64,000 nt of DNA from Thermophilibacter mediterraneus (GTDB lineage Bacteria; Actinomycetota; Coriobacteriia; Coriobacteriales; Atopobiaceae): contig NZ_FPKO01000008.1 of the NCBI RefSeq assembly GCF_900119385.1, positions 124,001 to 188,000 of the forward strand. Reading direction: 5' to 3'. Below the pieces are notes generated by a model, which searched no databases, was not told where the DNA came from, and saw nothing but the letters and a program-made list of their open reading frames with translations. Shown one piece after another: positions 4,380 through 18,497 of this stretch. Both the position numbers and the translations under genes were made by a program. Each line of letters opens with the position of its first letter. Position 1 is the first letter of the stretch.

Positions 4380-5243
4380 ATGAGAACCGTCATCGAGAAC
4401 CGGACCTTCGACGAGGAGCGCGCGCTCTACGGGACGCGCGACCTCGTCGTGCGGAACTGCCGCTTCGACGGCCCCGCCGACGGCGAGAGCGCCTTCAAGG
4501 AGTGCGAGGGCCTCACCGTGGAGGGCGCGTTCATGAACCTGCGCTACCCCTTCTGGCACGACCGCGGGCTCGTGCTGCGCGACGTGGAGATGACCGAGCT
4601 GTGCCGCGCGGCGCTGTGGTACTCGGAGGGGGTGACCATCGAGGGCGGCCGCCTGCACGGCATCAAGGCGCTGCGCGAGTGCGCCGACGTGCGCATGCGC
4701 GGCTGCGACGTCGTCTCGCCGGAGTTCGGCTGGTCCACGCGCGGGATCGAGATGGAGGCGACCAGCGCCGAGAGCGAGTACTTCATGATGCGCTCGACGG
4801 GCCTGCGCCTGCGCGACGTGCACTTCCAGGGCAAGTACTCGTTCCAGTACGTCGAGGACGCCGTGATCGAGGACAGCGAGCTCGACACCAAGGACGCCTT
4901 CTGGCACGCGAAGAACGTCGTGGTGCGCAACTCCCTCGTGCGCGGCGAGTACCTGGGCTGGTACAGCGAGAACCTCACCTTCGAGAACTGCCTCATCCAG
5001 GGCACGCAGCCGCTGTGCTACTGCACGGGGCTCAGGCTCGTGAACTGCCAGATGGTCGACTGCGACCTCGCCTTCGAGCGCAGCCACGTCCAGGCGACGC
5101 TCACCACGCACGTCGACAGCGTCAAGAACCCGCTCGCCGGCAGCAGGATCGTCCTGCCGTCCGTGGGCGAGGTGATCCGGGACATCGAGGGCGCCACCGG
5201 CGTGGTTGAGGAGACGTCGGGGTGCGTGCGCGCGTGCGCGTAG
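4380..5243 (+). CDS. DUF3737 family right-handed beta-helix protein
   Basis: A 287-aa protein starting at an ATG behind GGAGAACAGCC. Throughout it shows short repeats of hydrophobic strand plus Asn/Cys/Asp turns (LVVRNCRFDG, VVVRNSLVRGEY, LTFENCLIQG), the pattern of a parallel beta-helix, and it matches the DUF3737 family (MRTVIENRTFDEERALYG opening). No signal peptide, so cytoplasmic. DUF3737 proteins are common in gut anaerobes, often beside LysR or MerR regulators; function unknown. It is probably controlled by the divergent LysR gene. Confidence 0.85.
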   Translation: MRTVIENRTFDEERALYGTRDLVVRNCRFDGPADGESAFKECEGLTVEGAFMNLRYPFWHDRGLVLRDVEMTELCRAALWYSEGVTIEGGRLHGIKALRECADVRMRGCDVVSPEFGWSTRGIEMEATSAESEYFMMRSTGLRLRDVHFQGKYSFQYVEDAVIEDSELDTKDAFWHAKNVVVRNSLVRGEYLGWYSENLTFENCLIQGTQPLCYCTGLRLVNCQMVDCDLAFERSHVQATLTTHVDSVKNPLAGSRIVLPSVGEVIRDIEGATGVVEETSGCVRACA

Positions 5244-5248
5244 AGCGG

Positions 5249-5272
5249 GGTTGACACTGGTGTCAACCCCGC
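5249..5272. terminator. hairpin after DUF3737 gene (terminator-like)
   Basis: A near-perfect inverted repeat, GGGGTTGACA...TGTCAACCCC, begins 5 bp after the DUF3737 stop. No T-run follows, so it is not a canonical intrinsic terminator, but position and stability suggest transcript-end formation. The half-site GTCAACCCCGC recurs near 5500 and 9920. Confidence 0.45.
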
Positions 5273-5519
5273 CCGCGGGCGGGCAGCTGGGGGCGACGCC
5301 GGCACCGAGACGGAGCGATTTGCGAAAACGGGCCTCTCTCGGCGGCTGTTCTCGCAAGATGCTCCGTTTCGGCGCGGGGGCAAAGAGGAGCGTCAGGACG
5401 CGGGCCCAAATGCGGGGCGGCGGCGCCAATGGGAAGCGGGCATCGTCAGGTCATGACGTCAAAACTTGACGCTACAACCTGACGCCAGCGTCAACCCCGC
5501 AGGCGGACGAAATTCTCGC
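5273..5519. other. non-coding spacer with a long imperfect inverted repeat
   Basis: No gene is supported between the DUF3737 hairpin and the tRNA promoter. The main structure is an imperfect inverted repeat at 5305-5372: CCGAGACGGAGC...TTGCGAAAAC on the left against GTTCTCGCAA...GCTCCGTTTCGG on the right, with arms of about 30 bp. It is followed by TTGACGCTAC...CTGACGCCAGCGTCAACCCC. Confidence 0.6.
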
Positions 5520-5548
5520 TTGCGCGGCGCCCTTGAGGCTGCTATAGT
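5520..5548 (+). promoter_or_regulatory. promoter of tRNA-Pro
   Basis: A -35-like TTGCGC (5520-5525) and a -10 TATAGT (5543-5548) are separated by 17 bp. The predicted start at about 5555 is roughly 12 bp upstream of the mature tRNA 5' end. Read directly from sequence; untested. Confidence 0.6.
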
Positions 5549-5566
5549 ACTTCCTCGCACAACGAC

Positions 5567-5643
<77 letters not shown>

Positions 5644-5653
5644 GAGTATTCTT

Positions 5654-5684
5654 GAGACCAAGGTCTACACCTTGGTCTCTTTTG
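5654..5684 (+). terminator. intrinsic terminator of tRNA-Pro
   Basis: GAGACCAAGG (5654-5663) pairs perfectly with CCTTGGTCTC (5670-5679) around a 6-nt loop, followed by TTTT. A textbook rho-independent terminator 10 bp after the tRNA. Confidence 0.9.
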
Positions 5685-5967
5685 CTATAGCAAGCTCTAC
5701 TATCGCGTTGCATACCGCCACCAAACCAACCGCATACTAATTGCATGCCAAAAACGGCTGACTGACTTCTATTGTCCGACTGAAATGCTCGTCATTTCTT
5801 GAATAATCTAATGCTTTTGGGAGCTGTCTGTATCCACAACTTCTTCATCTTCGTGAACGACGGTTAGCCCCTTCTCTGTGTTCTATGCCGTCTGGAATCA
5901 TCAAGGTCATATTTTCGAAAGGATGAGGCGGAGGAAGGCAATCTCAGGCAGAGAGGCTCGTGGGATC
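5685..5967. other. left part of AT-rich island, no supported gene
   Basis: Base composition drops sharply compared with flanking DNA immediately after the tRNA terminator. I see no RBS-preceded open frame of credible length here and no recognisable repeat. It is interpreted as decayed island DNA. Confidence 0.5.
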
Positions 5968-6402
5968 ATGCAGAAATCACCATGCGTGTATGCAAAGCCG
6001 CTCAACGCCACTGAAGCTGCTGCGTGGGCTCATATCAGCAAGCGAAAGCTCCTTGATTATGCGAGTGCGGGCATCATTGGAAAACGGTCGGTGGCTGTTG
6101 GTTGGCCTCGCCTACGCGCCTTGTCTTGGCGGACGCACATGGACGGATTTGTGTGGTTTGCGCGTCGGGGCGTTGACCCCTCGCATCCCCCGATGCTACG
6201 ATTATCATGTGATCACGGGGGGGACGCGAACGGAGAGATACCTAAGCGAAACCCCCATTTTCATGCCCATTCACCCTCCCAATCTTCCTTCGCATCGAGC
6301 TTCCGTCGAGCCATGCCTTCACGGACTCTGGAAGCCGCTTGTAGAGCGATGACGCGTTCTTCCTCGACGGCAGCAGGAGCTTCTCGAATTTCCCTATGTT
6401 GA
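5968..6402 (+). CDS. doubtful ORF with an excisionase-like HTH start
   Basis: An open frame from an ATG reads MQKSPCVYAKPLNATEAAAW then AHISKRKLLDYASAGIIGKR. This resembles the MerR/Xis-type HTH (E-AA-x-L-x-I-S...LL...G-I) of small excisionases. After about residue 55 the sequence loses this character, lacks family-like features and runs antisense into the NYN gene (from 6242). The RBS is weak. If real, it is a truncated or frameshifted Xis remnant next to the tRNA attachment site, which would fit an integrated element; it may equally be chance. Confidence 0.2.
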   Translation: MQKSPCVYAKPLNATEAAAWAHISKRKLLDYASAGIIGKRSVAVGWPRLRALSWRTHMDGFVWFARRGVDPSHPPMLRLSCDHGGDANGEIPKRNPHFHAHSPSQSSFASSFRRAMPSRTLEAACRAMTRSSSTAAGASRISLC

Positions 6403-6781
6403 TAAGGTGGTCGACGGTGCGGAAGTAGTCACCGTCGCCCGAGACGAGGACGGCCTTATCCATGAGTCTTGACGCATATGAGTCGCGCATCATCTCAAAG
6501 ACCACGTCAACGTCCACGTTGCCCTTTTTTCGCCCCTTCAGCTCGAGTCCGTGCTCGCGAAAGACCAGCACGTAGCCAAACTGCTGGAACAGGCGGTACA
6601 TGTCCTGCCGCTGGTAGTCGAAGGCTCCCATGAACAGGTAGGCCTGCGAAACGCCATACTTCTCGCGGAGATAGACGCGGAACCTCCTCATGTCCACGTC
6701 CCACGGCTCGTCTGAGTTCCTGGTGGCCATATACAGGTTCTGGTTGTCAATGTAGGCGAAGTTGCTTCTTGTCGCGTCCAC
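6242..6781 (-). CDS. NYN-domain (LabA/DUF88-type) putative ribonuclease
   Basis: A 179-aa protein with a GTG start (6781) after a strong AAAGGAGGGGC site. The NYN/PIN-like fold motifs are visible: YIDNQNL (Asp12, Asn15), a central acidic strand-helix KGNVDVDVVFEMMRDS (Asp90/Asp92) and VLVSGDGDYFRTVDHL (Asp116, Asp118). These four acidic positions normally bind the catalytic metal for RNA cleavage. The last 20 residues are basic (MRRKIGRVNGH), possibly RNA-binding. It is the third gene of a module inside the tRNA-Pro island, 65 bp after the unknown 272-aa gene; codon use is less GC-rich than the core genome. Confidence 0.85.
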   Translation of the reverse strand: MDATRSNFAYIDNQNLYMATRNSDEPWDVDMRRFRVYLREKYGVSQAYLFMGAFDYQRQDMYRLFQQFGYVLVFREHGLELKGRKKGNVDVDVVFEMMRDSYASRLMDKAVLVSGDGDYFRTVDHLINIGKFEKLLLPSRKNASSLYKRLPESVKAWLDGSSMRRKIGRVNGHENGGFA

Positions 6782-6846
6782 GCCCCTCCTTTCCTCTTGT
6801 TCCCGCCTCGCGCACTGTCTTGCCGGACATGCAAGGCAGGGCTCTT

Positions 6847-7665
6847 TTATCTTGAGACCGCTATCGTCAGGTCATCTCCGTCGACGTTTAGGACGAAGAT
6901 TCTTGAGCCCCCTGCCTCTATCGCCTTTATCACAGTGTCTCGCTGCTCCGGTGTAAGCTTTGACGCGACGGAGCCACCCTTCATGAGGAACGTTCCCCTG
7001 AACGTAAGATCGTCACCGATGGAGACGAACGTTCCCCCGCTCGCCTTTGCAGACATCTTTGTCATGATGTCATCGGAGCCGCCTGACCTCGACGTCGAGT
7101 GAGCGCCGTCCCCTGCGATGTCGCGAAGCAACCTGATGATTTGCTCGTTCTGACGAACGATCACCCATTGCTGACGAATCTGTGCCTTCATGAGGTCAAT
7201 CATGAAAGAGGTATCAGCGTTTCCCGACAGAAGGCTTCCGAGCGAGTAGAGCCCGGACCCAGCCATCTTCGAGTCCATGTCACGAATGTCCCTTACGTTG
7301 CTACGGCTGAGATCGACATCGGACATGTCCTCGAAGGCGAGTCCGTGCTTCCTGAGGCTCCTTTTCTCAGACTCACTCAGTGGAGCACTTGTCACGAAGT
7401 CCGCAGCGTACGCCCTGGATGCCGGGACCATGACTGACACGCTGATGGTATCGCCGATTCGCGCTCCAAGCTCAATCCGCTTGTCCTTCTCCGAGCGGAT
7501 TTGACTCTCGTACGACTTCGGAAGTCTTGCCACCACCTCTCCGTTGACCTTGGCGACGAGTTCGCCATCGGCAGAGAATACCTTTGCCTCTGTCCCCATG
7601 GGATAGCGCGAGTCACCAACCGGTGTCGCGTCGATGCGGAAGAGCTCTACGTAGCTATCGCTCAT
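6847..7665 (-). CDS. unknown 272-aa protein of the island module
   Basis: The start is the ATG at 7665, directly behind GGAGAAGGAGGAGGC and overlapping the upstream stop as ATGA; the frame is open for 20 more codons but that extension has no merit. I do not recognise a family. The N-terminal 85 residues look beta-rich (AKVFSADGELVAKVNGEVVA, GDTISVSVMVP). The middle is helical with an IDLMKAQIRQQWVIVRQNEQ segment. The C-terminus (about 195-272) reads like a second beta domain. No signal peptide, membrane segment or Cys. Partner of the NYN protein by position. Confidence 0.75.
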   Translation of the reverse strand: MSDSYVELFRIDATPVGDSRYPMGTEAKVFSADGELVAKVNGEVVARLPKSYESQIRSEKDKRIELGARIGDTISVSVMVPASRAYAADFVTSAPLSESEKRSLRKHGLAFEDMSDVDLSRSNVRDIRDMDSKMAGSGLYSLGSLLSGNADTSFMIDLMKAQIRQQWVIVRQNEQIIRLLRDIAGDGAHSTSRSGGSDDIMTKMSAKASGGTFVSIGDDLTFRGTFLMKGGSVASKLTPEQRDTVIKAIEAGGSRIFVLNVDGDDLTIAVSR

Positions 7666-7891
7666 GCCTCCTCCTTCTCCACTTGAAACCAGACCATAAC
7701 GCCGATGAGTCTCATCGTGCCCCATCTCTCAATTCTGAAGAACTCGCAGATGGGGCAAATCTGCTCGGCATTGGGAAACATCTCACCCTGCCCCAGTTCA
7801 ACTCGGCCTTCGGGGACACCTCGGCGGTGGCAACTATCTCCTCCTGGGTCTTCCCGTATCTCGAGCGCATCTTAGAAAGTTTGGCAGTCAT
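7662..7891 (-). pseudogene. XRE-family HTH regulator, frameshifted
   Basis: From the ATG at 7891 (GAGG upstream) the first frame reads MTAKLSKMRSRYGKTQEEIV and then VSPKAELNW. The typical rest of the XRE helix bundle continues in another frame as GQGEMFPNAEQICPICEFFRI, ending at a TGA (7664-7662) that overlaps the next gene's ATG. The frames would join if one G were added to GGGG (complement of 7791-7794). So this is a 1-base deletion, a homopolymer sequencing error, or, least likely, programmed frameshifting. Restored length is about 76 aa. It heads the three-gene module and would be its regulator. Confidence 0.65.
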
Positions 7892-8360
7892 AATTCCTCA
7901 ACCTTACGTCTATTATGTCCATAGTAACACATTTACTTGTTACTAGAATTAAGTTTCTAAGTGCTTATAAAACACTTTAGAGACGCAGAGGGGCAGATAA
8001 GTGACCGGGCCCACTGTAATTCAAAAGTATTTGCAAATCGTAATCATAAGCTCGTAATCCGTTACGAGCCAGGTGAAGAGAGCAGCTGATGGATTGGTGG
8101 GTCTTCATCGCACTAATCGTATGCTGCTTCATCCTCGGCTGGTAGCACGGGAGGAGGGAAACGCGATGACCACTATGCTTTTGTCACTCAGGTTGCACTG
8201 CTTGCCTTCGCGTACATGCCTGGTGTTTCCGAGCTGGACAAGGGGGGGGGGTAATTATTCAACCGGATGTGAACGAAATCATTTCGTGTTACTTGACAAA
8301 CTCCTCTTATCAATAAGTGCTCATATTATTGTAGATAGATGTAGTTGTTAAATATACTTT
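7892..8360. other. right part of AT-rich island, no supported gene
   Basis: AT-rich DNA with many stops. There is a possible 18-codon hydrophobic peptide (ATG at about 8089, MDWWVFIALIVCCFILGW) followed by a good AGGAGG and a short ORF that runs into a 10-G tract (8242-8251). Neither is long enough to call. TTGACA occurs at 8293-8298 but has no convincing -10 at proper spacing. Confidence 0.4.
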
Positions 8361-8411
8361 CTGACTGGTGTTCAAGGGATTGCTGATTCGAACCCAGTTC
8401 ACTCGATCCGA
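8361..8411 (+). other. degenerate tRNA-Pro 3' half (candidate attachment site/integration scar)
   Basis: About 41 of 52 positions match the anticodon-arm-to-acceptor half of the tRNA-Pro at 5598-5649 (TTCAAGGGATTGCTGATTCG against TCAAGGGGTCGCTGGTTCG); differences are mostly transitions. The 5' half of the tRNA is absent, so it cannot fold as a functional tRNA. It marks the far end of the AT-rich island and is best read as an old att duplication left by a tRNA-targeting element, or a decayed second tRNA gene. Confidence 0.7.
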
Positions 8412-8417
8412 GATTTC

Positions 8418-8452
8418 GAGATCACGGAACAATGCCCGTGACCTCTATTTTT
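8418..8452 (+). terminator. intrinsic terminator after tRNA remnant
   Basis: GAGATCACGG pairs with CCGTGACCTC (one mismatch) around an 8-nt loop and is followed by TATTTTT. It supports a formerly transcribed tRNA-like locus at this position. Confidence 0.7.
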
Positions 8453-8804
8453 GATTCTTCACAGTGCTCCCCCTTTACCGCACAATCTCGGAATTGTGCG
8501 GCGCGCGGCGCGCACTCGAGGCGACTCCCGTCCACCGGGGCGCCCTCAGCAGGCGGCTTGCTCCCCGCGCCCGCCTCCTGGCCGCACAATCTCGGAATTG
8601 TGCGGCGCGCGGGGCGCGCGGGAGCTCCGGGGCCGTGCGCCACGTGCGCCACACGGGGGCACACGCGCCCCCCGCCCCCGCGCGCCGTTTCGTCCGCGTT
8701 TCAGTCCGGCAAACGCCGTGTGGCCGCGCGGCCCGCCCCGCAGCGGGCGCGTGCGCAGCGACCCTATGATGGTCGAACACTGCACCCGGACACAGGAGGA
8801 CGAC
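8453..8804. other. serC upstream region with paired palindromes
   Basis: GC-rich non-coding DNA between the island end and serC. It holds the 126-bp palindrome-ended element (8479-8604). No clear -35/-10 boxes are seen; serC has its RBS (CAGGAGG) at 8793-8800. Confidence 0.5.
8479..8604. repeat. 126-bp element ending in two identical 22-bp palindromes (copy 1)
   Basis: The same 22-mer, CGCACAAT-CTCGGA-ATTGTGCG, occurs at 8479-8500 and 8583-8604, offset exactly 104 bp. Eight bases after the left palindrome is a GCGCGCACTCG motif. A second element with identical geometry lies at 18072-18197. Each palindrome would form a stem of 8-9 bp in RNA. No T-run follows, so simple terminators are unlikely. 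Confidence 0.85.
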
Positions 8805-9884
8805 ATGGCGCGCGTGTACAACTTCTCCGCAGGCCCCGCCGTGCTTCCCGAGGAGGTACTCGGGGAATGCGCGGACGAGATGCTCGACTATGCCGGCTGC
8901 GGCATGAGCGTCATGGAGATGAGCCATCGATCTTCCGTCTTCCAGAAGATCATCGACGACGCCGAGGCGACGCTCCGCGACCTCATGGGCATCCCCGACT
9001 CCTACAGGGTCATCTTCACCCAGGGCGGCGACTCGCTGCTGTTCTCCACGGTCTTCATGAACCTGGCGACCAACGGCAAGGCGGACTACGTCATCACCGG
9101 CAACTGGGCCAAGAAGGCCTTCCAGGAGGCGCAGATCCTCGGCGACGCCGTGGCCGTGGCGTCCTCCGCCGACCGCAACTTCTCCTACATCCCCGACTGC
9201 TCCGACCTGCCCATCCGCGAGGACGCGAGCTACCTCTACATCTGCGAGAACAACACCATCTACGGCACCCGCTTCTGGGAGCTGCCCGACACCAAGGGCC
9301 ACGTGCTCGTCTCCGACCAGAGCTCGATGTTCCTCTCCGGGCCCGTCGACGTCAGCAGGTACGGGCTCATCCACGCCGGGGTCCAGAAGAACGTGGGGCC
9401 CGCGGGCGTGCAGATCGTGATCGTGCGCGAGGACCTCATCCCCGACGACCTCCCCGGCGTGCCCACGATGCTGCGCCTCAAGACCCAGGCTGACGCCGGG
9501 TCGCTCTACAACACCCCCAACTGCTGGGGAATCTACGTCTGCGGCAAGGTCTTCGCGTGGATCAAGAAGAACGGCGGGCTCGCTGCCATGGGGGAGCGCA
9601 ACGCCGAGAAGGCGGCCGTCCTCTACGACTTCCTCGACTCCTCCGAGCTCTTCTCGTCCACCGTCGAGGCGCGCGACCGCTCGCTCATGAACGTGCCGTT
9701 CGTCACCGGCGATGCCGAGCTCGACAAGGAGTTCGTGGCCGAGGCCGCGCGCGCGGGCCTCGTCAACCTCAAGGGCCACCGCTCGGTGGGCGGCATGCGC
9801 GCCTCGATCTACAACGCCATGCCGCGCGCCGGCGTCGAGGCGCTCGTCGCGTTCATGAGGGACTTCGAGCTCGCGCACCGTTGA
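8805..9884 (+). CDS. serC: phosphoserine aminotransferase
   Basis: A 359-aa PLP enzyme that converts 3-phosphohydroxypyruvate and glutamate to phosphoserine in serine biosynthesis. It opens MARVYNFSAGPAVLPEEVL, the class-V aminotransferase SerC signature. The Schiff-base Lys is at about 195 (GVQKNVGPAG), with the HR pair at 41-42. The usual GGASxQF loop reads GGDSLLF here. The start is the ATG after CAGGAGGACGAC; the open frame extends upstream without homology. It is followed 86 bp later by the matching dehydrogenase gene, so the pair covers the first two serine steps; no serB is in the window. Confidence 0.95.
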   Translation: MARVYNFSAGPAVLPEEVLGECADEMLDYAGCGMSVMEMSHRSSVFQKIIDDAEATLRDLMGIPDSYRVIFTQGGDSLLFSTVFMNLATNGKADYVITGNWAKKAFQEAQILGDAVAVASSADRNFSYIPDCSDLPIREDASYLYICENNTIYGTRFWELPDTKGHVLVSDQSSMFLSGPVDVSRYGLIHAGVQKNVGPAGVQIVIVREDLIPDDLPGVPTMLRLKTQADAGSLYNTPNCWGIYVCGKVFAWIKKNGGLAAMGERNAEKAAVLYDFLDSSELFSSTVEARDRSLMNVPFVTGDAELDKEFVAEAARAGLVNLKGHRSVGGMRASIYNAMPRAGVEALVAFMRDFELAHR

Positions 9885-9970
9885 CACTTGACAGGCGCCG
9901 GGTCACGGCGTCAACCCCGCGCGGGGGGGGCGCCACGGGCCGACGCCGGTCGAACCCAGGAGGGTACGCC

Positions 9971-11143
9971 ATGTACAGGATCTGCTGCCTCAACAACATC
10001 GCCAAGGTCGGCACCGACCGCCTCGGCCCGGGCTACGAGTTCGTCGCCGAGCCCGAGGGCGCCGACGCCCTGCTCGTCCGCAGCGCCAACCTCCACGAGC
10101 TCGAGCTCGGGGGCGGCCTGCTCGCCATCGCCCGAGCCGGCGCGGGCGTGAACAACATCCCCGTGGAGCGCTGCGCCGAGAGCGGCGTCGTGGTCTTCAA
10201 CACCCCCGGGGCGAACGCCAACGCCGTGAAGGAGCTCGTCATCTGCGGCATGCTGCTCGCCTGCCGCGACGTCATCGGCGGGGCCGCGTGGGTCGCCGAG
10301 AACAGCGACGACCCCGAGATCGCCAAGCGTGCCGAGAAGGCCAAGAAGCAGTTCGGCGGGTTCGAGCTCGCGGGCAAGCGCGTGGGCGTGGTGGGCCTCG
10401 GCGCCATCGGCGCTGCGGTCGCCAACGCCCTCATCGACCTCGGCTGCGAGGTCATGGGCTACGACCCCTACCTCTCGATCAACGCCGCGTGGAGCCTCGA
10501 CAGGCGCATCGAGCACGTCACCGACCTCGGGGAGCTCCTCGCCCGCTGCGACTTCGTGACGCTGCACGTGCCCGCGACCGACGCCACGCGCCACATGGTC
10601 GGCGCGGACCAGATCGCCCGCATGCCGCGCGGCGCCGTGCTGCTCAACTTCGCCCGCGACGCGCTCGTCGACGAGCAGGCGCTCGCTGAGGCGCTCGACG
10701 ACGGCCGCGTGGGCCGCTACGTCACCGACTTCGCCAACCCCGCGAGCTCGAACATGAGAAACGCCATCGTCCTGCCGCACCTCGGGGCCTCGACCGGCGA
10801 GGCCGAGGACAACTGCGCCGTCATGGCCGCCGACGAGCTGCGCGACTACCTCGAGAACGGCAACATCAGGAACTCCGTCAACTACGGCCAGGTCGACCTC
10901 GGGGAGCTCGCCGAGGGCAACGAGCGCGTCGCCCTCTTCCACGAGAACGTCCAGGGCGTCATCGGGCTCATCTCCGCCGAGATCGCGGCGTCCGGCCTCA
11001 ACATCGAGAACATGACCAACAAGAGCCGCGGCAGCAACGCCTACACGCTCATCGAGGTCTCCGGCGACCTGACGCAGGAGACGTGCGCGCGCCTCGCGGG
11101 CATGCCCGGCGTGCGGCGCGTGCGCCTCATCGAGCGCCCCTAG
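9971..11143 (+). CDS. serA: D-3-phosphoglycerate dehydrogenase
   Basis: A 390-aa NAD-dependent dehydrogenase. Visible are the Rossmann motif VGVVGLGAIGAAVANAL (about 137-153), catalytic Arg in NFARDALVDEQAL and His in PHLGASTGEAE. The position that is Glu in classical SerA (DVFxxEP) reads YVTDFANP, as in the shorter clostridial/Bacteroides SerA type. A C-terminal ACT domain (IGLISAEIAASGLNIENMT) suggests serine feedback control. AGGAGG precedes the ATG. The serC-serA gap carries GTCAACCCCGC and an 8-G run. Confidence 0.93.
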   Translation: MYRICCLNNIAKVGTDRLGPGYEFVAEPEGADALLVRSANLHELELGGGLLAIARAGAGVNNIPVERCAESGVVVFNTPGANANAVKELVICGMLLACRDVIGGAAWVAENSDDPEIAKRAEKAKKQFGGFELAGKRVGVVGLGAIGAAVANALIDLGCEVMGYDPYLSINAAWSLDRRIEHVTDLGELLARCDFVTLHVPATDATRHMVGADQIARMPRGAVLLNFARDALVDEQALAEALDDGRVGRYVTDFANPASSNMRNAIVLPHLGASTGEAEDNCAVMAADELRDYLENGNIRNSVNYGQVDLGELAEGNERVALFHENVQGVIGLISAEIAASGLNIENMTNKSRGSNAYTLIEVSGDLTQETCARLAGMPGVRRVRLIERP

Positions 11144-11264
11144 GGCGCGGGGGCCGGCCCCGCCGCCCGCCGCCCCCGAGGGGGTGACGGGCGGCGTCTT
11201 GAATTGCGCTAAGATGGGTAACCTGAATGGGTAGGCACATCCAAGACCCAAGGGGCAGCAAAAC

Positions 11265-11999
11265 GTGTCAGAGAGAACCGACCGCATCACCGCGGAGATC
11301 AAGGCAGTTGCGGACTCCGACGCCGCAGAGCGCCAGCGCACCGGGCGCACCGACGTCCCGGTGGGCACGTCGGGCAACCCGTCGACCCAGATACTCACGC
11401 TGGCCAACGTCATCACGTTCTGCCGGCTCGCCCTCACCATCGTCTTCCTGGTCCTGTTCGCCGGCGACGGGCACGACCGCCCGCTGGCGCTCGTGTGCTA
11501 CGTGGTGGCCGCCTCGACCGACTTCCTCGACGGCCAGGTGGCGCGCCGCACGCAGACGGTGAGCTGGCTCGGCAAGATCATGGACCCGATCATGGACCGC
11601 GTGCTGCTGTTCACCGGCGTGATCGGCCTGCTGATCGTCGGCGAGCTCCCGGTGTGGGTGCCCGTCTTCGTCATCGGGCGCGACGTCTACCTCGCCCTCG
11701 GCGGGATGGTGCTGCAGCGCTACCGCCGCCGCCCGGTCGACGTGTCCTACGTCGGCAAGGCCGCCACGGCGCTGCTCATGCTCGGCTTCTGCGACCTCTT
11801 GCTCGGCCTGCCCAAGGTGGGCGGCCTCGGCATCGTCGAGTCGCCCTGGCTGCCCGGCCTCGGCGCCGAGCCGGCCACGCTCGGCATCTTCTTCGTCTAC
11901 CTCGGCGTGCTCTTCTCCGCCGCCGCCGCGGTCATCTACACCAAGGAGGGCGCCGACATCAGGCGCCAGGCGACCCGCGGGCGCGGGGGAAAGCGATGA
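11265..11999 (+). CDS. CDP-alcohol phosphatidyltransferase (PgsA-like)
   Basis: A 244-aa multi-pass membrane protein with a GTG start (11265). The family motif D-G-x2-A-R-x8-G-x3-D-x3-D is clear in DFLDGQVARRTQTVSWLGKI followed by MDPIMD. Compared with the PgsA at 34910 it has a longer soluble N-terminus (about 45 aa), so it may make a different phospholipid (for example phosphatidylinositol-phosphate or cardiolipin type). It starts a co-oriented cluster; its TGA overlaps the next ATG (ATGA). TAAGAT lies about 50 bp upstream as a possible -10. Confidence 0.85.
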   Translation: MSERTDRITAEIKAVADSDAAERQRTGRTDVPVGTSGNPSTQILTLANVITFCRLALTIVFLVLFAGDGHDRPLALVCYVVAASTDFLDGQVARRTQTVSWLGKIMDPIMDRVLLFTGVIGLLIVGELPVWVPVFVIGRDVYLALGGMVLQRYRRRPVDVSYVGKAATALLMLGFCDLLLGLPKVGGLGIVESPWLPGLGAEPATLGIFFVYLGVLFSAAAAVIYTKEGADIRRQATRGRGGKR

Positions 12000-12832
12000 G
12001 CGCGCGCATGGGGGCGCTCTACGAGGAGCACGTGATCCTCGGCGCGAGCTTCGAGGAGGGCCCCCTCGCGGGGGCGCTCGCCGTGAGCTCGTACGCGGGC
12101 GAGAAGGACCTCGGCCCGTCGCTCGGGGGGGCCGTCGTCTCGGACCTGACGGGCACGACCTACCAGCTGCTCTCGGGCCCGAGCGCGCCCGAGCTCGCGG
12201 AGGCCGCGCTCGCGGGCAGGCGCCTCGCCGTGGGCGAGGCCGCCTTCGAGGCCGTGCTCACCGGGGAGGGCCGCCTCGTCGCGGCGCCGCTCGCGCTGCG
12301 CACGGGTGACCACGAGTACGTCCTGTGCGACCCCGGGCCCGAGGGCGCCGCCGCGGTCGCCTGGGTCGGCTTCCTCTCGGGCGTCGAGCGCGACGGGTAC
12401 GCCCCGTACGAGGGGAGCGCGCTCGAGGACGCGAGCCGCATGCTCGTGCCCATCCTGCTCGCCGGGGAGCGCTCACGCGCGGTGCTCTCCGACTACGTGC
12501 GCACCGCGGGCGAGTCGCTGCCCGGGCCCGGGCGCGTCGCGTCGCTTCACCTCGACGCCATCCCCGCGCTCGTGGCGCGCGTGCCCGCCCGCGGCCCCGA
12601 GGCCTGGCTGCTGCTCGTCCCCGCGCGCTCCGCGCGCGTGCTGTGGCGCAGCCTCCTCTCGTTCACCGAGGTCGAGCCCGTGGGCACGCGCGCGGCCCGC
12701 GAGCTCTGGGCCCGCGCGCGGCCGCTCCCCGCGGGCCCGCCGCGCGTCCCGGCGCCCCGAGCCGAGCTCGCGCGCCTCGGCCTCGTCCGCGCGGACGGCG
12801 GCTTCGTGGGGGAGCGCGCGCTCGGCGACTAG
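11996..12832 (+). CDS. GcvT-like folate-binding/aminomethyltransferase-family protein
   Basis: A 278-aa protein coupled by ATGA to the phosphatidyltransferase. The opening (LYEEHVILGASF), the GGAVVSDLTGTTYQLLSGPSA segment and the closing LLLVPARSARVLWRSLLSF fit the GcvT/YgfZ fold, but conservation is low. No other glycine-cleavage genes are present in the window, so a housekeeping YgfZ-like role or a divergent T-protein are both possible. Intact and of family-like length; the assignment rests on overall pattern rather than catalytic residues. Confidence 0.6.
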   Translation: MSARMGALYEEHVILGASFEEGPLAGALAVSSYAGEKDLGPSLGGAVVSDLTGTTYQLLSGPSAPELAEAALAGRRLAVGEAAFEAVLTGEGRLVAAPLALRTGDHEYVLCDPGPEGAAAVAWVGFLSGVERDGYAPYEGSALEDASRMLVPILLAGERSRAVLSDYVRTAGESLPGPGRVASLHLDAIPALVARVPARGPEAWLLLVPARSARVLWRSLLSFTEVEPVGTRAARELWARARPLPAGPPRVPAPRAELARLGLVRADGGFVGERALGD

Positions 12833-12915
12833 CCCGCCGCCCGCACGTTCTTCTCGCCGCGCTTTGCACTGCACGCTCGCTGACCTCAAGGGCCGCGGCC
12901 CGGAAGGGGGCTCGC

Positions 12916-13296
12916 ATGAAGTACGCCATCAACGCCCAGGGCGCTCCCGAGGCCTTCGGCCCGTACTCCCAGGGGACCACCGCCGGCAGGCTCGTCTTCG
13001 CCTCGGGGCAGCTCCCCATCTCGCACGAGGACCCGCGCGCCCTCGTCGACGGAGGGATCACCGAGCAGACCGACCGGGTGATCGACATCATCGAGTCGAT
13101 CCTCGGCGAGGTCGGCTGCACGCTCTCCGACGTCGCGCAGACCACGGTCTACCTCGCGAGCCTGTCGGACCTCGAGGCGATGAACGAGGTCTACGCCCGC
13201 CGCTTCGGCTCCCCTGCGCCGGCGCGCGCCGTCGTCGGCGTCTCCGAGCTGCCGCTCGGCTCGCTCGTCGAGATGGACTGCATCGCGTGCAGGTAA
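12916..13296 (+). CDS. ridA: RidA-family enamine/imine deaminase
   Basis: A 126-aa protein, the usual RidA length. Signature blocks are GPYSQGTTAGRLVFASGQLP, VAQTTVYLASLSD and ARAVVGVSELPLGSLVEMDC; the catalytic Arg104 and Glu119 are present. It hydrolyses reactive 2-aminoacrylate formed by PLP enzymes, which fits the serine genes upstream. GGAAGGGGG precedes the ATG. It is separated by 83 bp from the GcvT-like gene and 40 bp from the FHA gene. Confidence 0.93.
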   Translation: MKYAINAQGAPEAFGPYSQGTTAGRLVFASGQLPISHEDPRALVDGGITEQTDRVIDIIESILGEVGCTLSDVAQTTVYLASLSDLEAMNEVYARRFGSPAPARAVVGVSELPLGSLVEMDCIACR

Positions 13297-13336
13297 GCGC
13301 GCTATCATAGGAGTGACACCGAAAGGGGAGTGTGAC

Positions 13337-13756
13337 ATGCCCAACACCAATCCCGGCGCGACCGAGATCTTCCGGATGCCCGCCGCCGACTCCACCGTAC
13401 CCGACCTCATGGGCGGCTCCAAGCCGTCCCACCCGACCCTCACCATCGTCAAGGGCCCGCAGATCGGCGAGACCTTCGAGCTCGACGCGCCGGAGATCAC
13501 CCTCGGGCGCGACCCCAAGAACAGCGTCTTCCTGAACGACATGACCGTCTCGCGCCACCACGCGCGCATGGACCTCGGCAACATCTCGCTCGGGATGGCC
13601 ACGATCGAGGACCTCGGCTCGCTCAACGGCACGTGGGTCGACGGCGCCATCGTGAGCAAGGCGGGCCTCAAGGACGGCTCGACCATCCAGATCGGCACCT
13701 TCCGGATGGTCTTCCACACGAGCGCGCGCCCGCGCAGGATCGACACCGAGGCGTAG
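13337..13756 (+). CDS. FHA-domain protein (GarA/OdhI-like)
   Basis: A 139-aa protein with one FHA domain at about 50-130. All phosphothreonine-binding residues are present: GR at 57-58, SRH at 72-74 and N97 in LGSLNGTWVDG. The short N-terminal tail holds Thr residues (GATEIF, DSTVPDL) as in GarA/OdhI, the actinobacterial regulators of 2-oxoglutarate metabolism that self-bind when a tail Thr is phosphorylated; the exact ETT motif is not seen. It is directly upstream of a MerR gene, as garA is in mycobacteria. GAAAGGGGAG precedes the ATG. Confidence 0.8.
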   Translation: MPNTNPGATEIFRMPAADSTVPDLMGGSKPSHPTLTIVKGPQIGETFELDAPEITLGRDPKNSVFLNDMTVSRHHARMDLGNISLGMATIEDLGSLNGTWVDGAIVSKAGLKDGSTIQIGTFRMVFHTSARPRRIDTEA

Positions 13757-13761
13757 CGCCC

Positions 13762-14544
13762 ATGGCCGACGCCGGATACCTGACAATCGGCAAGGTCGTC
13801 AAGAAGCTGCAGCAGCAGTATCCCGACCTCTCGGTCTCGAAGGTGCGCTACCTGCAGGACGAGGGGCTCCTCAACCCCTCGCGCACGCCGAGCGGCTACC
13901 GCCTCTACTCGCAGCGCGACGTCCATCGCCTCGAGACGATCCTCTACCTGCAGAAGAACCGCTTCCTGCCGCTCTCGGTCATCCGCGAGGAGCTCGAGCG
14001 CATGGACGCGGGGCAGGCGGGCTCGGCGGGCGTGGGCCTCGAGGCGGTCACGCTGCCGCCCGACGACGAGGAGACCGCCGGCAAGCTCCACCCCATCGAC
14101 CGCATGCCCGAGCTCGTGGGCGCCTCGGTGAGCTTCGTGCGGCAGCTCTCCGAGGCCGGCGTCATCCAGCTCACGCGCTCGCCCCACGGGCGCGACCTCG
14201 TGGACGGGCGGGACTTCCCGCTCATCCGCGTGTGCGACGAGCTGCGCCACTTCGGCATCCTGCCGCGCAACCTCCGCCAGTACGTCATCGCCGCCAACCG
14301 CGAGTCCGCCATGTTCGAGCAGGCGCTCGTGGTGTACGCCCGCAAGGGCGGCGGCGTGGAGCTCCCGCCCTCCGACGAGGCCCGGGAGCGCTTCGAGCAG
14401 GCGTTCTCGCGCATGCTCGGGCTCACCAACGCCGTGCGCGACGAGCTCATCGCGCGGCGCATCAAGGAGCCGTTCGCAGAGAAGGACGCCGGGCGCGACG
14501 CGTCGGGCGAGAAGAACACGGGAAGAGGGACCACGCGTGTCTGA
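13762..14544 (+). CDS. MerR-family regulator (FtsR-like)
   Basis: A 260-aa protein, longer than typical MerR. It has an N-terminal winged HTH (TIGKVVKKLQQQYPDLSVSK, VRYLQDEGLLNPSRTPSGYR) and a second HTH-like block at about 115-165 (VSFVRQLSEAGVIQLTRSPH). This double organisation and its place 6 bp after an FHA gene match the FtsR/Rv1828-type regulator of actinobacteria, which controls division genes including ftsZ. Its end overlaps the apt start by 8 bp. A division role is inference from synteny. Confidence 0.8.
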   Translation: MADAGYLTIGKVVKKLQQQYPDLSVSKVRYLQDEGLLNPSRTPSGYRLYSQRDVHRLETILYLQKNRFLPLSVIREELERMDAGQAGSAGVGLEAVTLPPDDEETAGKLHPIDRMPELVGASVSFVRQLSEAGVIQLTRSPHGRDLVDGRDFPLIRVCDELRHFGILPRNLRQYVIAANRESAMFEQALVVYARKGGGVELPPSDEARERFEQAFSRMLGLTNAVRDELIARRIKEPFAEKDAGRDASGEKNTGRGTTRV

Positions 14545-15076
14545 GCAGACCTTTGACTTCGAGAGCCGCATCGTCGACATCCCGGACTACCCCGAGCCTG
14601 GCGTCGTCTTCAAGGACGTGACCCCGCTCTTCGACGACCCCGAGGGCCTGCGGGCCGCCGTGGACGCCATCGCGGGGCGCTTCGAGGGCCGCGGCGTCAC
14701 CAAGGTGCTCGGCGCCGAGGCGCGCGGCTTTCTCATCGGCGCCCCGGTGGCGTACCGCCTGGGCTGCGGCTTCGTTCCCGCCCGCAAGCCCGGCAAGCTC
14801 CCGCGCGCCGTCTACCGCCAGAGCTACGAGCTCGAGTACGGCACCGACGAGCTGCAGGTGCACCGCGACTCCATGGGGCCGGGCGACCGCGTGCTCGTGG
14901 TCGACGACCTCGTCGCCACGGGCGGCACGGCCGTGGCGCAGGCGCGCCTGGCCGAGCAGACCGGGGCGGAGGTGGTCGGGTTCGCCTTCATCCTCGAGCT
15001 CGGCTTCCTGAGCCCGCGCGAGGTCATCGCCCGCGACTACGACCAGGAGGTCTTCTCGCTCGTCACGGTGCGCTAG
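14537..15076 (+). CDS. apt: adenine phosphoribosyltransferase
   Basis: A 179-aa protein with a GTG start inside the end of the MerR gene. The type-I phosphoribosyltransferase PRPP loop VLVVDDLVATGGT is at about 119-131; APRT-specific blocks are IPDYPEPGVVFKDVTPLF and GAEARGFLIGAPVAYRLG. It converts adenine and PRPP to AMP (purine salvage). Of standard length, with no oddity. Confidence 0.95.
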   Translation: MSEQTFDFESRIVDIPDYPEPGVVFKDVTPLFDDPEGLRAAVDAIAGRFEGRGVTKVLGAEARGFLIGAPVAYRLGCGFVPARKPGKLPRAVYRQSYELEYGTDELQVHRDSMGPGDRVLVVDDLVATGGTAVAQARLAEQTGAEVVGFAFILELGFLSPREVIARDYDQEVFSLVTVR

Positions 15077-15190
15077 GCGAGACGGTGCCGCGGCGGCGAC
15101 CCTTGGATTCATGCCCATCGTATGAACGAACCGATGAGCCACGCAACACAGCTAAGATGTACTAGTTGGTCTACGAAAGGATTCTCGTTC

Positions 15191-16397
15191 ATGAAGCTTA
15201 GACACAGGGCGGTCACCGCGGGCATCGCGCTCGCCCTCTGCGGGGCCGTCTCGCTGACGTCGCTTCCCGCAACCGTGGCCTACGCCGACCCCGCATCCGA
15301 CCTCGCCGCAGCCGCGGCCCAGCTCGACGCCCTCGGCGCCGAGCTCGCCGGCTACCAGGAGCGCCTCGCCACCGCAACGACCGAGCTCGAGGCCACCGAC
15401 TACGCCATCGCCGAGACCCAGGCGCAGGTCGAGTCCACCAGCCAGCAGCTCTCCGAGAAGCAGGCAGCCCTCGGCGAGAGCATGAAGAGCACCTACAAGA
15501 CCGGCAGCGAGGGGCTGCTCGACTTCATCCTCGGCTCCACCTCCGCCGAGGACCTCGCCAACCGCGTCTACTACCTCGACAAGATCTCCGAGCAGAAGGC
15601 CGCGGCCATCGAGGAGGTCCGCACCCTCGCCGAGCAGCTCTCCCAGGAGATGAGCGACCTGCAGTCCAAGCAGCAGACGCAGCAGCAGCAGGTCGACGAC
15701 CTCCAGAGCCAGGTCGATGCGTACCAGAGCCGCGTCGCCGAGGCGACGAGCTACTACGAGGCGCTCGACGCCGAGGTGCAGGCGCAGCTCGCCGAGCAGG
15801 CCGCCGAGAACGAGAACGTCTCCAACGCCATCGACACCATCGAGAACGGGCAGTCCCAGGGCGGCGGGCAGACCCAGCAGCCCTCCGAAGGCACCGGCGG
15901 CGACAACGGCGGCGGTGCCTTCGGAGGGGCGCTGGGGCTGCCCGCCGCCCCGGGGCCCGGCTCTTATACACATCTCCCAGGCCACCAGGACCCTCTTCGC
16001 GTAGCCGTAGCTGTAGCAGATCAGGCCGGAGCAGTCGAACGCGTCCGGGCCCTCCGTCCCCGCGGGCGGCGGCCTCGCGACCGCGTACGCGCAGCTCGGC
16101 AAGCCCTACGTCTACGGGGCGGCGGGCCCGGACGCGTTCGACTGCTCCGGCCTGATCTGCTACAGCTACGGCTACGCGCGCGGGCGCACCACCTACGCCA
16201 TGATCTCCTCGCTGCAGGCGAGCGGCGACTGGAAGACGAGCATGGACGAGCTCGCCGTGGGCGACCTCGTCTTCCCGCACTCCGGCCACGTCGGCATCTA
16301 CCTCGGCAACGGCACGTACCTCCACGCCGCGAACCCGGGCTCCGGCGTCATCATCGGCCAGCTCTACAGCTTCTACGGCGGCGGCTCCTACTACTAG
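15191..16397 (+). CDS. secreted NlpC/P60 peptidoglycan hydrolase, reading frame broken by a probable assembly artefact
   Basis: The ATG at 15191 follows GAAAGGATTC. The protein has a Sec signal peptide (LRHRAVTAGIALALCGAV, cleavage near AYA-DP), a long coiled coil (about 35-215) and a Gly/Gln linker. The NlpC/P60 domain continues in another frame from about 16055 to the TAG at 16397: DAFDCSGLICYSYGYA holds the catalytic Cys and SGHVGIYLG the His. Between them 15961-16054 starts with CTCTTATACACATCT, a sequencing-adapter mosaic end, then a 55-bp foldback of the downstream Cys region. Removing 94 bp restores one frame. The real gene is probably intact, about 370 aa, a wall hydrolase of the RipA/PcsB kind. 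Confidence 0.8.
15961..16054. other. probable adapter plus foldback sequence artefact
   Basis: 15961-15975 is CTCTTATACACATCT, 15 bases of the Tn5 mosaic end used in tagmentation libraries, followed by CCCAGGCCACCAGGACC, close to the known adapter continuation. Then 15998-16052 is a perfect 55-bp reverse complement of 16124-16178. Length 94 = 3n+1 is exactly what is needed to reconcile the two halves of the NlpC/P60 gene. Confidence 0.85.
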
Positions 16398-16410
16398 GCG
16401 CTGATGCTCC

Positions 16411-17988
16411 GTGCGGCAGGACCATGAGGTGGCGCGGCGCCTCTCGCGGCGCTTCCAGGTGACGCTCGTGGGCGAGGGCGTCCTCGTCGGCCTTGCCGGC
16501 GGGGCCGTCGTCACCCTGTACCGCATCGCGCTCTCATACGCCGAGGGGCTCCTTCGCTCCGTGACCGGCGCGCTCTCAGGCGGCTGGGTCGGGCCCCTCT
16601 GCTGGCTCGTCGCCCTCGCCGCGATGATGCTCGTGGTCGGCAGGCTCGTCTCGTGGGAGCCCGCGACCTCGGGGTCGGGCATCCCGCAGGTCGACGCCGA
16701 GGTCGTCGACCGCATGGACGCGCCGTGGCATCGCGTCATCCCCGCCAAGTTCGTCGAGGGCACGCTGCTCGCGCTCTCGGGCCTCTCGCTCGGTCGCGAG
16801 GGTCCGTCGGTGCAGCTCGGCGGCATGTCGGGCAAGGCGGTCTCGCGCGCGCTCGGGCGCAAGAGGGGAGAGGAGCGCCTCCTCGTGACCTGCGGAGCGG
16901 CCGCGGGCATGTCCGCCGCGTTCCACGCGCCCTTCACCGGCGTCCTCTTCGCGCTCGAGGAGATCCACAAGGAGTTCACCGCGCCGCTCATCATCTCCGT
17001 CATGAGCTCTGCCATCGCCTCGGATCTGCTCGTCTCGCAGGTGCTCGGGGTCCAGCCCGTCATGGCCCTCGCGTTCTCGCGCGACCTGCCGCACCCCGAC
17101 TACGCGCTCGTCGTCGTGCTGGGCGTCCTGTGCGGGCTGCTCGGCGCGGCGCACAACCGCGGGATGTTCGCCCTCCAGGACCTCTTCGGGCGCATCCGCT
17201 CGCACCTGCCGTACGCGCGCCTCGCCGTCCCGTTCGCCCTCGCCGGCATCGTCGCGTTCACGTGGCCCGAGCTCATGTGCGGCGGCGACGCCGTGCTCGA
17301 GGAGGTCCTCGCAACGAGCCGCCCGGGGATCGTCGCCCTGCTCACGCTGCTCGCGGGCAAGTACGTCTTCACGTCGGTGTGCTTCGGCTCGGGAGCGCCC
17401 GGGGGCACGCTCTTTCCGCTCGTCGTCATGGGCGCGCTCGTGGGCGGGGCCTTTGCGGCGGGCTGCACCGAGCTCGTGGGCCTCAGGCAGTGGTACTTCT
17501 CGAACTTCGTGGCGCTGGGGGTCGCGGGCCTGTTCTCGGGCGTCGTGCGCGCCCCGGTGACGGCCGTGGTCCTCGTCTTCGAGCTCACGGGATCGCTCGA
17601 CGCGCTGCTGTCGGTCTCCATCGTGTCGATCGTCGCGTACGTGACGTCGAGCCTCACGCGCACCGACGCGTTCTACGAGCACCTGCTCGCCAACCTGCTG
17701 GACACCACGACCGCCGACCCCGACGTGAGCGGACTCGGCGGTCGCAAGGCGCTCGAGAGCGTGCGCGTGGGGGCGGGGAGCCGCCTCGAGGGCATGCTCG
17801 TGCGCGACGTCCCGTGGCCGGACGGCATGCGCGTGGTCACGGTGGAGCGCGCGGGCGAGGAGCTGCTTCCGAGCGGCGACACGCGGCTCGAGGCGCTCGA
17901 CGACCTGCTCGTCATCGTGGGGTCGGACGCCGCGGACGACGCGCTGCTCAAGCTCCGGGTGATGGCCGCCCAGCGCGTCGGGAGCTGA
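16411..17988 (+). CDS. ClC-family chloride channel/antiporter with C-terminal TrkA-C-like domain
   Basis: A 525-aa membrane protein. ClC signatures are present: SGSGIPQVDAE, GREGPSVQLGG (with the gating Glu), AAFHAPFTGVLFALEE and GSGAPGGTLFPLVVMG. About 400 residues of hydrophobic helices are followed by a soluble 100-residue tail resembling a TrkA-C regulatory domain (VPWPDGMRVVTVERAGEELL). The conserved gating Glu suggests a transporter of chloride against protons, perhaps for acid resistance. The start is a GTG (16411) 13 bp after the NlpC/P60 stop with a poor RBS; it may be coupled, or start at a later codon. Confidence 0.88.
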   Translation: MRQDHEVARRLSRRFQVTLVGEGVLVGLAGGAVVTLYRIALSYAEGLLRSVTGALSGGWVGPLCWLVALAAMMLVVGRLVSWEPATSGSGIPQVDAEVVDRMDAPWHRVIPAKFVEGTLLALSGLSLGREGPSVQLGGMSGKAVSRALGRKRGEERLLVTCGAAAGMSAAFHAPFTGVLFALEEIHKEFTAPLIISVMSSAIASDLLVSQVLGVQPVMALAFSRDLPHPDYALVVVLGVLCGLLGAAHNRGMFALQDLFGRIRSHLPYARLAVPFALAGIVAFTWPELMCGGDAVLEEVLATSRPGIVALLTLLAGKYVFTSVCFGSGAPGGTLFPLVVMGALVGGAFAAGCTELVGLRQWYFSNFVALGVAGLFSGVVRAPVTAVVLVFELTGSLDALLSVSIVSIVAYVTSSLTRTDAFYEHLLANLLDTTTADPDVSGLGGRKALESVRVGAGSRLEGMLVRDVPWPDGMRVVTVERAGEELLPSGDTRLEALDDLLVIVGSDAADDALLKLRVMAAQRVGS

Positions 17989-18008
17989 AGCCGCGGCGCG
18001 CGGGCCTG

Positions 18009-18072
18009 TGGTCGCTGCGGCCCGTGATTGCTGCGACCCGTGACCGCCGCGGCCCGTGGTCGCCGCACCGCC
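18009..18072. repeat. 16-bp tandem repeat, four units
   Basis: Four consecutive diverged units of the form TGGTCGCTGCGGCCCG start at 18009, 18025, 18041 and 18057; the last runs into the palindrome at 18072. Confidence 0.8.
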
Positions 18073-18197
18073 GCACAATCTCGGAATTGTGCGGCGAGCA
18101 CCGGAGGAACGGGGACGAAACCCCAGATGAGGTTCTTCTCGCGGTCAAGAAACCCGCCGAGTGCGCGCTCGCCGTCGCACAATTCCGAGATTGTGCG
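18072..18197. repeat. 126-bp element ending in 22-bp palindromes (copy 2)
   Basis: CGCACAAT-CTCGGA-ATTGTGCG at 18072-18093 and its reverse-oriented form (centre TCCGAG) at 18176-18197 are offset by exactly 104 bp, as in copy 1 at 8479. Read from the right end, GCGCGCACTCG again starts eight bases inside the palindrome. The next bases (complement of 18140-18166) match a unit of the 46.4-kb array at 23 of 27 positions. Confidence 0.85.
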
Positions 18198-18205
18198 ACG
18201 CCTCG

Positions 18206-18304
18206 GGTCGTGAGGCCGCGATGAGGCGCAACACCGGTGGTCGTGATACCGAGATGAGGCGCAAGACCGATGGTCGCGAGGCCGCGATGGCGCGCAACAC
18301 CGAT
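18206..18304. repeat. 33-bp tandem repeat, three units
   Basis: Units start at 18206, 18239 and 18272 (GGTCGTGAGGCCGCGATGAG type). The period is a multiple of three, so overlapping frames show 11-residue repeats, but no start signal supports translation. Confidence 0.8.
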
Positions 18305-18438
18305 GGCCCATGCGGCCGCGAAGGCACAACCGAGGTTCCGAGGCGCCGTGCGGCAGGGGGGGCTTCTGTGGAACCCAGACCTATCCTCGATACCCTCTAC
18401 TTTACATAAGATATATTATCACGGTTTTATATGAGCAC

Positions 18439-18474
18439 GGCCGAGAGGGGCCCGACCAACGACCCCTCCCGGCC
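18439..18474 (-). terminator. hairpin downstream of trxB
   Basis: On the minus strand GGCCGGGAGGGG pairs with CCCCTCTCGGCC (one mismatch) 24 bp after the trxB stop. The downstream sequence is AT-rich but lacks a clean T-run, so termination strength is uncertain. Confidence 0.45.
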
Positions 18475-18497
18475 CGCACCAAGACACGCCTGCCGCG

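Follow-up and report, generated by a model that had tools for sequence, protein, structure and literature searches.

A 126-bp intergenic repeat with two palindromic ends in Thermophilibacter mediterraneus and a few gut Olsenella bacteria that probably works like a REP doublet

Introduction

Why do two identical 22-bp palindromes stand exactly 104 bp apart upstream of serC in Thermophilibacter mediterraneus, and does the pair form one element or two separate sites? REP repeats, a well-studied class of bacterial palindromic repeat, are best known from proteobacteria, and they are tied to RAYT transposases. Here we analysed a 64-kb stretch of T. mediterraneus DNA (the window) together with the genomes of its relatives, and we conclude that each pair is probably one 126-bp non-coding intergenic repeat that works like a REP doublet (REPIN/BIME), being kept in place and occasionally copied elsewhere. 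If this is correct, the near-perfect palindromes, rigid length, RAYT-free richest host and sister family would mean that the REP architecture is separable from RAYT, and the families would provide a natural series in which to ask how the spacing is set.

Palindrome pairs in the window

The palindrome CGCACAAT-N6-ATTGTGCG occurs exactly at positions 8479, 8583, 18072 and 18176 of the window. With up to three mismatches allowed, the pattern search returned four matches against a shuffle mean of 0.06, and none of 100 shuffles reached four. As the original prediction had it, the copies at 8479-8500 and 8583-8604 are identical with their starts 104 bp apart, and the same spacing returns at 18 kb in the pair at 18072 and 18176. 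The 6-base centre runs in the same direction in both copies of the first pair and is inverted in the right-hand copy of the second. The features of this region are as follows.

5567-5643: intact tRNA-Pro(ggg), from a tRNA scan of 5000-19000
about 8361-8409, plus strand: diverged copy of the 3' part of tRNA-Pro (att scar), outside the unit, read from the sequence
8479-8500, no strand: unit 1, left palindrome CGCACAATCTCGGAATTGTGCG, exact match
8501-8582, plus strand: 82-bp interior of unit 1, divergent within the family and closest (0.60) to another T. mediterraneus unit
8583-8604, no strand: right palindrome of unit 1; it and the 8 bases after it repeat those of the left palindrome
8805-9884, plus strand: putative serC, named from the original prediction and our own reading
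18072-18093, no strand: unit 2, left palindrome, pattern match
18094-18175, minus strand: 82-bp interior of unit 2, in the opposite orientation to that of unit 1, from the interior comparison
18129-18142, minus strand: GCGAGAAGAACCTC within the unit 2 interior, read from the sequence
18176-18197, no strand: unit 2, right palindrome with inverted centre, pattern match

The start of serC lies 200 bp past unit 1, and the att scar about 70 bp to the left of the pair. Unit 1 in its entirety scores 77.5 bits with profile R1, which was trained on 27 units, unit 1 among them. Positions 5644-8360, from the intact tRNA-Pro to its diverged 3' copy, hold a remnant island, within which a minus-strand gene is predicted at 6242-6781.

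Interior and palindrome structure

Little conservation had been claimed between the palindromes, which no longer holds once orientation is left free: of their 82 bases, the two interiors of the window have 43 in common when one is inverted and 28 when both are read in one direction, with a gapped score of 0.54 against a shuffled 99% point of 0.45. We extended this comparison to 38 interiors (12 from T. mediterraneus, 24 from Olsenella sp. An188, hereafter An188 (G019), and one each from Candidatus Olsenella pullistercoris (G020) and G022). With orientation free, every interior had a best match of 0.53-0.99; shuffles gave a mean of 0.36 and a 99% point of 0.44 for a single comparison, and the threshold for the best of 37 is somewhat higher. 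The palindromes themselves are near-perfect over their 22 bp (consensus CGCACAATTCCGGAATTGTGCG), and the 82-bp interior is asymmetric, its best-kept part being a common core near the middle, GCGAGAAG-AACCTC-AACWGG.

Beyond their ends, the palindromes are extended by complementary flanks that are specific to each unit, with mean runs of 1.61 on the left and 2.03 on the right compared to 0.72 and 0.67 in shuffles (0 of 2000 in each case). The outer flanks also match each other (1.26 against 0.73 expected; 6 of 2000 shuffles), and the three other flank pairings showed no excess over shuffles. We infer that this complementarity reflects hairpin formation or fold-back copying. Beyond the palindromes themselves, RNAalifold on 29 units recovered just a single short hairpin in the interior, on one of the strands, and we therefore claim no interior structure. 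A known structured RNA at the units was rejected, as no Rfam match fell inside them: searches at nine loci found two tRNAs only, and a search of window positions 7800-18700 found two sub-threshold matches, both outside the units.

Copy number, spacing and host range

In the T. mediterraneus genome (2.37 Mb in 9 contigs) we detected 29 palindromes with up to two mismatches, and a reversed control pattern gave no match under the same threshold. Eight of the 13 neighbour distances below 1 kb equal 104, when random scatter would yield about 0.34 neighbour pairs; together with the shuffles in the window, this rules out a chance origin of the pairs. An188 is the richest genome, with 47 palindromes at up to one mismatch, and 18 of its 26 neighbour distances below 1 kb are 104 and three are 103. 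Palindromes with no neighbour inside 1 kb number 4 of 29 in T. mediterraneus and 2 of 47 in An188. Across 38 units (14 from T. mediterraneus and 24 from An188), the spacing is 104 in 28, 103 in four, 105 in two, and 102, 100, 114 and 125 in one each, such that 35 of 38 lie between 102 and 105 bp. Outside this set stand L027 (spaced at 175 bp, a degraded palindrome lying in between) and L020 (a single palindrome with an interior), and the other distances met were 69, 70, 100 and 175.

A search for pairs at 89-119 bp in the genomes of 84,980 species, a set that possibly excludes T. mediterraneus itself, returned 17 pairs in 16 stretches, 16 of them in An188 and one in Ca. O. pullistercoris. Fifteen are spaced at 104, one at 103 and one at 105, all 17 thus falling inside 103-105. 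Random spacing of other genomic copies, named in the original prediction as what would refute it, was not what we observed, 104 being dominant in T. mediterraneus, in An188 and in this search.

The exact palindrome was found in 5 of 40 genomes, T. mediterraneus included, and in none of the 15 genomes from other genera of the order; with up to one mismatch it occurs in 6 of the 31 genomes of the genus. A profile of 27 units matched 7 of the 31, with 37 rows in T. mediterraneus and 61 in An188 (counts that include partial matches and those on the second strand) and one or two each in G020, G022, G012, G011 and G013. The distribution is that of a few gut Olsenella bacteria, patchy among species. 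Carriage by viruses was rejected, given that neither the pair pattern nor the exact consensus palindrome matched any stretch of the viral collection.

A different account of the rigid spacing, the looped two-site complex of the original prediction, is that a dimeric protein binds both palindromes as operator-like sites on one helix face and loops or wraps the DNA between them, with the unit kept for chromosome structure or local regulation. Consistent with this, the interior changes in sequence but hardly in length, and the palindrome halves are drawn from few variants that pair almost independently; identical cores occur in 12 of 31 palindromes in T. mediterraneus (7.7 in shuffles) and in 29 of 49 in An188 (23.5 in shuffles). 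The outliers at 114 and 125 bp are also about one and two turns longer, although there are two of them and both end in a palindrome interrupted by an IS. We nonetheless consider this account unlikely. With its presence in 6 of the 31 genomes, the palindrome is not a core site of the genus, the distances of 69, 70, 100 and 175 fit poorly to whole turns, and the unit-specific complementary flanks suggest hairpins.

Loci compared between species

All 31 genomes of the genus have a serC match, that of G020 being weak, with no true serC match found there. Upstream of this gene, T. mediterraneus carries the pair and An188 carries one palindrome with a similar left flank; the other serC upstream regions have no palindrome among the 29 of 30 fetched loci that were read (L135 excluded). 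A serC operator, or the single site of a known regulator, was rejected because only these 2 of 29 upstream regions have the palindrome and because of its restriction to 6 of 31 genus genomes at up to one mismatch. In An188, tRNA-Pro lies directly upstream of serC with the palindrome between them and no island, and for this reason we also rejected the unit as part of the island; the proximity of the att scar, to which the pair had been tied, looks incidental. Other inverted-repeat elements were seen by eye upstream of serC in the relatives L131, L117, L141 and L134, for example CTGACAAATGGGGACGGAGGCG in L131.

At an XRE-regulator module, the unit is present in both T. mediterraneus and An188 with interiors 0.87 alike, G012 and G045 have a single palindrome within near-identical flanks, and G022 and G017 have none. 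For the adjoining gene, identity between T. mediterraneus and An188 reaches 96%, compared to 90% for serC, suggesting that the module probably moved between species. At two loci, the XRE module and serC, exactly 104 bp is thus present in some species and absent from others next to a palindrome that all of these retain. The module (L017, L041, L047 and L052), with its unnamed membrane-like gene, looks horizontally shared; its identity in G012 is only 77%, yet the DNA around the palindrome is near-identical.

After ybaK, palindromes occur in T. mediterraneus and An188 only, among 29 genomes, and elsewhere the next gene is often not murJ. The ybaK-murJ interiors of these two species score 0.49 inverted and 0.41 in the same orientation (shuffled 99% point 0.43). 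Additional common regions are rluD, a tetM-like/ABC-F pair (G022 too) and an EIIA/ABC permease pair (An188 and G020 too), names that come from our own reading of the proteins. At these regions, comparison of the T. mediterraneus and An188 interiors gave 0.24-0.45, values close to the shuffled 99% points of 0.32-0.43, so that common descent is not shown there, the XRE module excepted. The same unit is clearly present in T. mediterraneus and G022 (interior score 0.96) and in An188 and G020 (0.93). In a phylogeny of serC and ybaK from 28 genomes, T. mediterraneus, An188 and G012 each fall into a different group; some nodes are weak, that of the T. mediterraneus group having a value of 0.28.

As to movement, the closest competing explanation is a site-specific recombination cassette, in which a 104-bp piece (the interior plus one palindrome) enters, turns at and leaves a 22-bp palindromic attachment site, one palindrome marking an empty site and two an occupied one. 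This agrees with the locus at which An188 and T. mediterraneus have a pair but G012 and G045, between retained flanks, a single palindrome. It also agrees with three-palindrome arrays with a common middle in L023 (100/114), L036 (104/102) and L040 (104/104), the two interiors of L036 and L040 facing opposite ways, and with the better inverted match at ybaK-murJ. Loss between direct 22-bp repeats would give the same picture without a special enzyme, however, and the lone palindromes, which may be empty sites, are explained equally well by such a deletion. Moreover, isolated palindromes in An188 number just the two given above, none of the three lone palindromes of T. mediterraneus beyond the IS flank is established as a bare single, and no inversion was seen at other common loci. 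Inverted interiors at common loci, noted by eye at ybaK-murJ and rluD, were downgraded, with the small difference at the former and no resolution at the latter. Overall, we regard the cassette as quite improbable.

Genomic setting and copying of units

None of 39 rows (38 units, one entered twice) overlaps a gene predicted by our own codon score. By gene context, 12 are convergent, 19 tandem and 8 divergent, and for 14 of the 39 a predicted gene ends no more than 50 bp before the unit (an IS gene left out of the count). Two An188 loci hold two units each, 69 or 70 bp apart. Near-identical interiors occur at different loci (L034/L035, 0.93; L038/L039, 0.99; two in L044, 0.91), and judging from these sequences past copying of units is evident. 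The L038 and L039 units, the youngest copies, have about 40 bp of left flank in common, and their right flanks diverge within a few bases of the palindrome; the moved piece may therefore exceed 126 bp.

We also searched the unit edges for target-site duplications, as had been proposed, and direct repeats of 3-9 bp never exceeded the shuffle maximum at any length (for 3-bp repeats, 16 against a shuffle mean of 11.8 and maximum of 18). Of the suggested mobile 126-bp repeat unit, the unit itself is borne out by the related interiors, by edges at or very near the palindromes and by the many intergenic copies; its mobility is indicated only indirectly, by near-identical copies elsewhere, and no target duplication accompanies it.

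An IS1595-family element encoding a Zn ribbon (PF12760, 8.5e-9) and a DDE domain (PF12762, 1e-9) in two separate reading frames has five left and five right ends in the T. mediterraneus genome, and three of its five copies sit inside palindromes of the 126-bp repeat:

contig C3, 187349-188515: IS1595-family insertion in a palindrome
contig C6, 228376-229542: IS1595-family insertion in a palindrome
contig C6, 331215-332735: IS1595-family insertion in a palindrome

By our own reading, the duplications in the palindromes are TTCGAAAT twice and ATTCCGGAAT once. A fourth copy lies elsewhere with the duplication TATAAAGA, and the fifth, nested in an N-containing stretch, is uncertain. Since the element has its own ends and its own 8-bp duplications, the palindrome is its target, and REPs are described as IS targets in a published account (PMC3733652).

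These results bear on whether the repeat is a classical MITE of a DDE-type IS whose inverted ends happen to be palindromes. A small non-coding unit with inverted ends, dispersed and patchy among species, does resemble one, but the lack of direct repeats above the shuffle maximum and the different ends and duplications of the IS1595-family element argue against this, as does the fact that no larger element with CGCACAATTCC ends was encountered in an incidental rather than systematic search. We consider it very improbable.

Comparison with known repeat systems

In the REP-doublet interpretation that we prefer, a putative trans-acting protein would recognise the palindromes at both ends, either as dyads in the DNA or as hairpins in a single strand, with the distance between them fixed, and may copy the whole unit. 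Lone palindromes would then mostly be relics, left where recombination or slippage between the two palindromes deleted 104 bp. Insertion of new units would also belong to this reading, the base-by-base locus alignments having covered sites that keep a palindrome.

An end doublet at a preferred spacing, in many extragenic copies, is what we found, as is expected of REPINs. Speaking against the REP-doublet interpretation, RAYT (PF01797) has no match in An188, the richest genome. The domain has matches in 6 of 8 genomes overall, including three in T. mediterraneus, none of which is near a palindrome place. RAYT as the present mover was thus left unsupported, with none in An188 and the RAYTs of relatives standing beside other repeats. 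A constant tag (GTAG or CGTC) at the palindrome end is also absent, the flanks varying from unit to unit in lists read by eye. As both the tag and a linked RAYT are missing, we describe the repeat as REPIN-like and do not class it as a member. The RAYT-like genes of relatives, in L147, L148 and L149, adjoin hairpin repeats of other kinds, among them GTGCAAAAGGGACAG and GATCCAAAAGGGGTCTGTCCCC.

Bertels and Rainey (2011; PMC3116915) describe REPINs with preferred spacings of 71 and 110 bp, a length-constrained spacer and singlets as remnants. Compared to that description, the 126-bp repeat likewise has two palindromic ends at a preferred spacing (104 here), keeps length over sequence, is extragenic, forms clusters and has lone ends as relics, whereas its 22-bp ends are near-perfect palindromes, it has no constant tag and its richest genome has no RAYT. 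For REP dimers or BIMEs tagged with GTAG or CGTC, PMC3733652 gives spacers of mostly 20-100 bp, some alike in length but not in sequence; the dimer arrangement and the role as IS target are similar here, and GTAG or CGTC at the palindrome end is what sets those dimers apart. A further comparison, made by description and not by sequence, is with RU-1, which PMC2759123 describes as a 127-bp intergenic repeat of enterobacteria: it is of almost equal length, intergenic and MITE-like, and it differs in belonging to an unrelated host group.

Among the papers listed in searches of the open literature, none describes the 126-bp repeat family, and Olsenella combined with "repetitive extragenic palindromic" gave no match. 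RU-1 corresponds to ERIC.

Sister families

Weak profile matches in G011 and G013 led to a second palindrome, GCTCAAATCCGGATTTGAGC, which occurs with up to one mismatch at 20 places in 5 of 31 genomes. Its outer copies are exactly 184 bp apart in three rows and 183 bp in a fourth, and other rows are arrays with steps such as 30, 30, 126, 30 and 30. The core AACTGG-CTTTTGTC lies beside GCGAGAAGG in L260, L262, L264 and L273 and partly in L261, and was not seen by eye in L259, L263, L267, L269, L270 and L272 (L268 and L271 excluded); the common core thus belongs to the 184-bp type and not to the arrays. In An188 the core also stands between other inverted ends, exactly in L074 and with one or two mismatches in L109 and L106, and the word GCGAGAAG lies between still other ends in L058, L064 and L070. 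All sister-family groups were assigned by eye.

We tentatively suggest, while holding it to be doubtful, that Olsenella carries a modular class of tiny elements, in which the core AACWGG-CTTTTGTC beside GCGAGAAGRAC sits inside family-specific palindromes (CGCACAATTCCGGAATTGTGCG at 104 bp, GCTCAAATCCGGATTTGAGC at 184 bp and others in An188). Such elements may be moved or kept by a putative RAYT-independent factor that measures the distance between palindrome-bound dimers, the palindrome being the exchangeable recognition part.

Other repeats

The word GGCGAGAAGRAC is strongly over-represented in An188 (L096-L111) and in T. mediterraneus (the window and L112-L115), with an inverted pair at L069:570-574. 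In An188 it has 120 sites, 65 of them intergenic when 13% of the DNA is intergenic, and GGCGAGAAGAAC occurs 72 times in 320 kb against 0.6 expected; T. mediterraneus has 34 sites in 144 kb, nine of them intergenic. The word is reminiscent of a DNA uptake sequence, or of a site for a common protein. The uptake-sequence papers listed in the open literature searched gave no description of the 126-bp repeat family. Lastly, the window holds a 62-bp tandem array of palindromic units at 46367-46665 (also at L115:15319), in which TTCTCGTCCGCGCGGACAGGAA lies between GCGCACTCG and CGAGTGCGC, and the 20-nt start is present in five copies spaced at 60-62.
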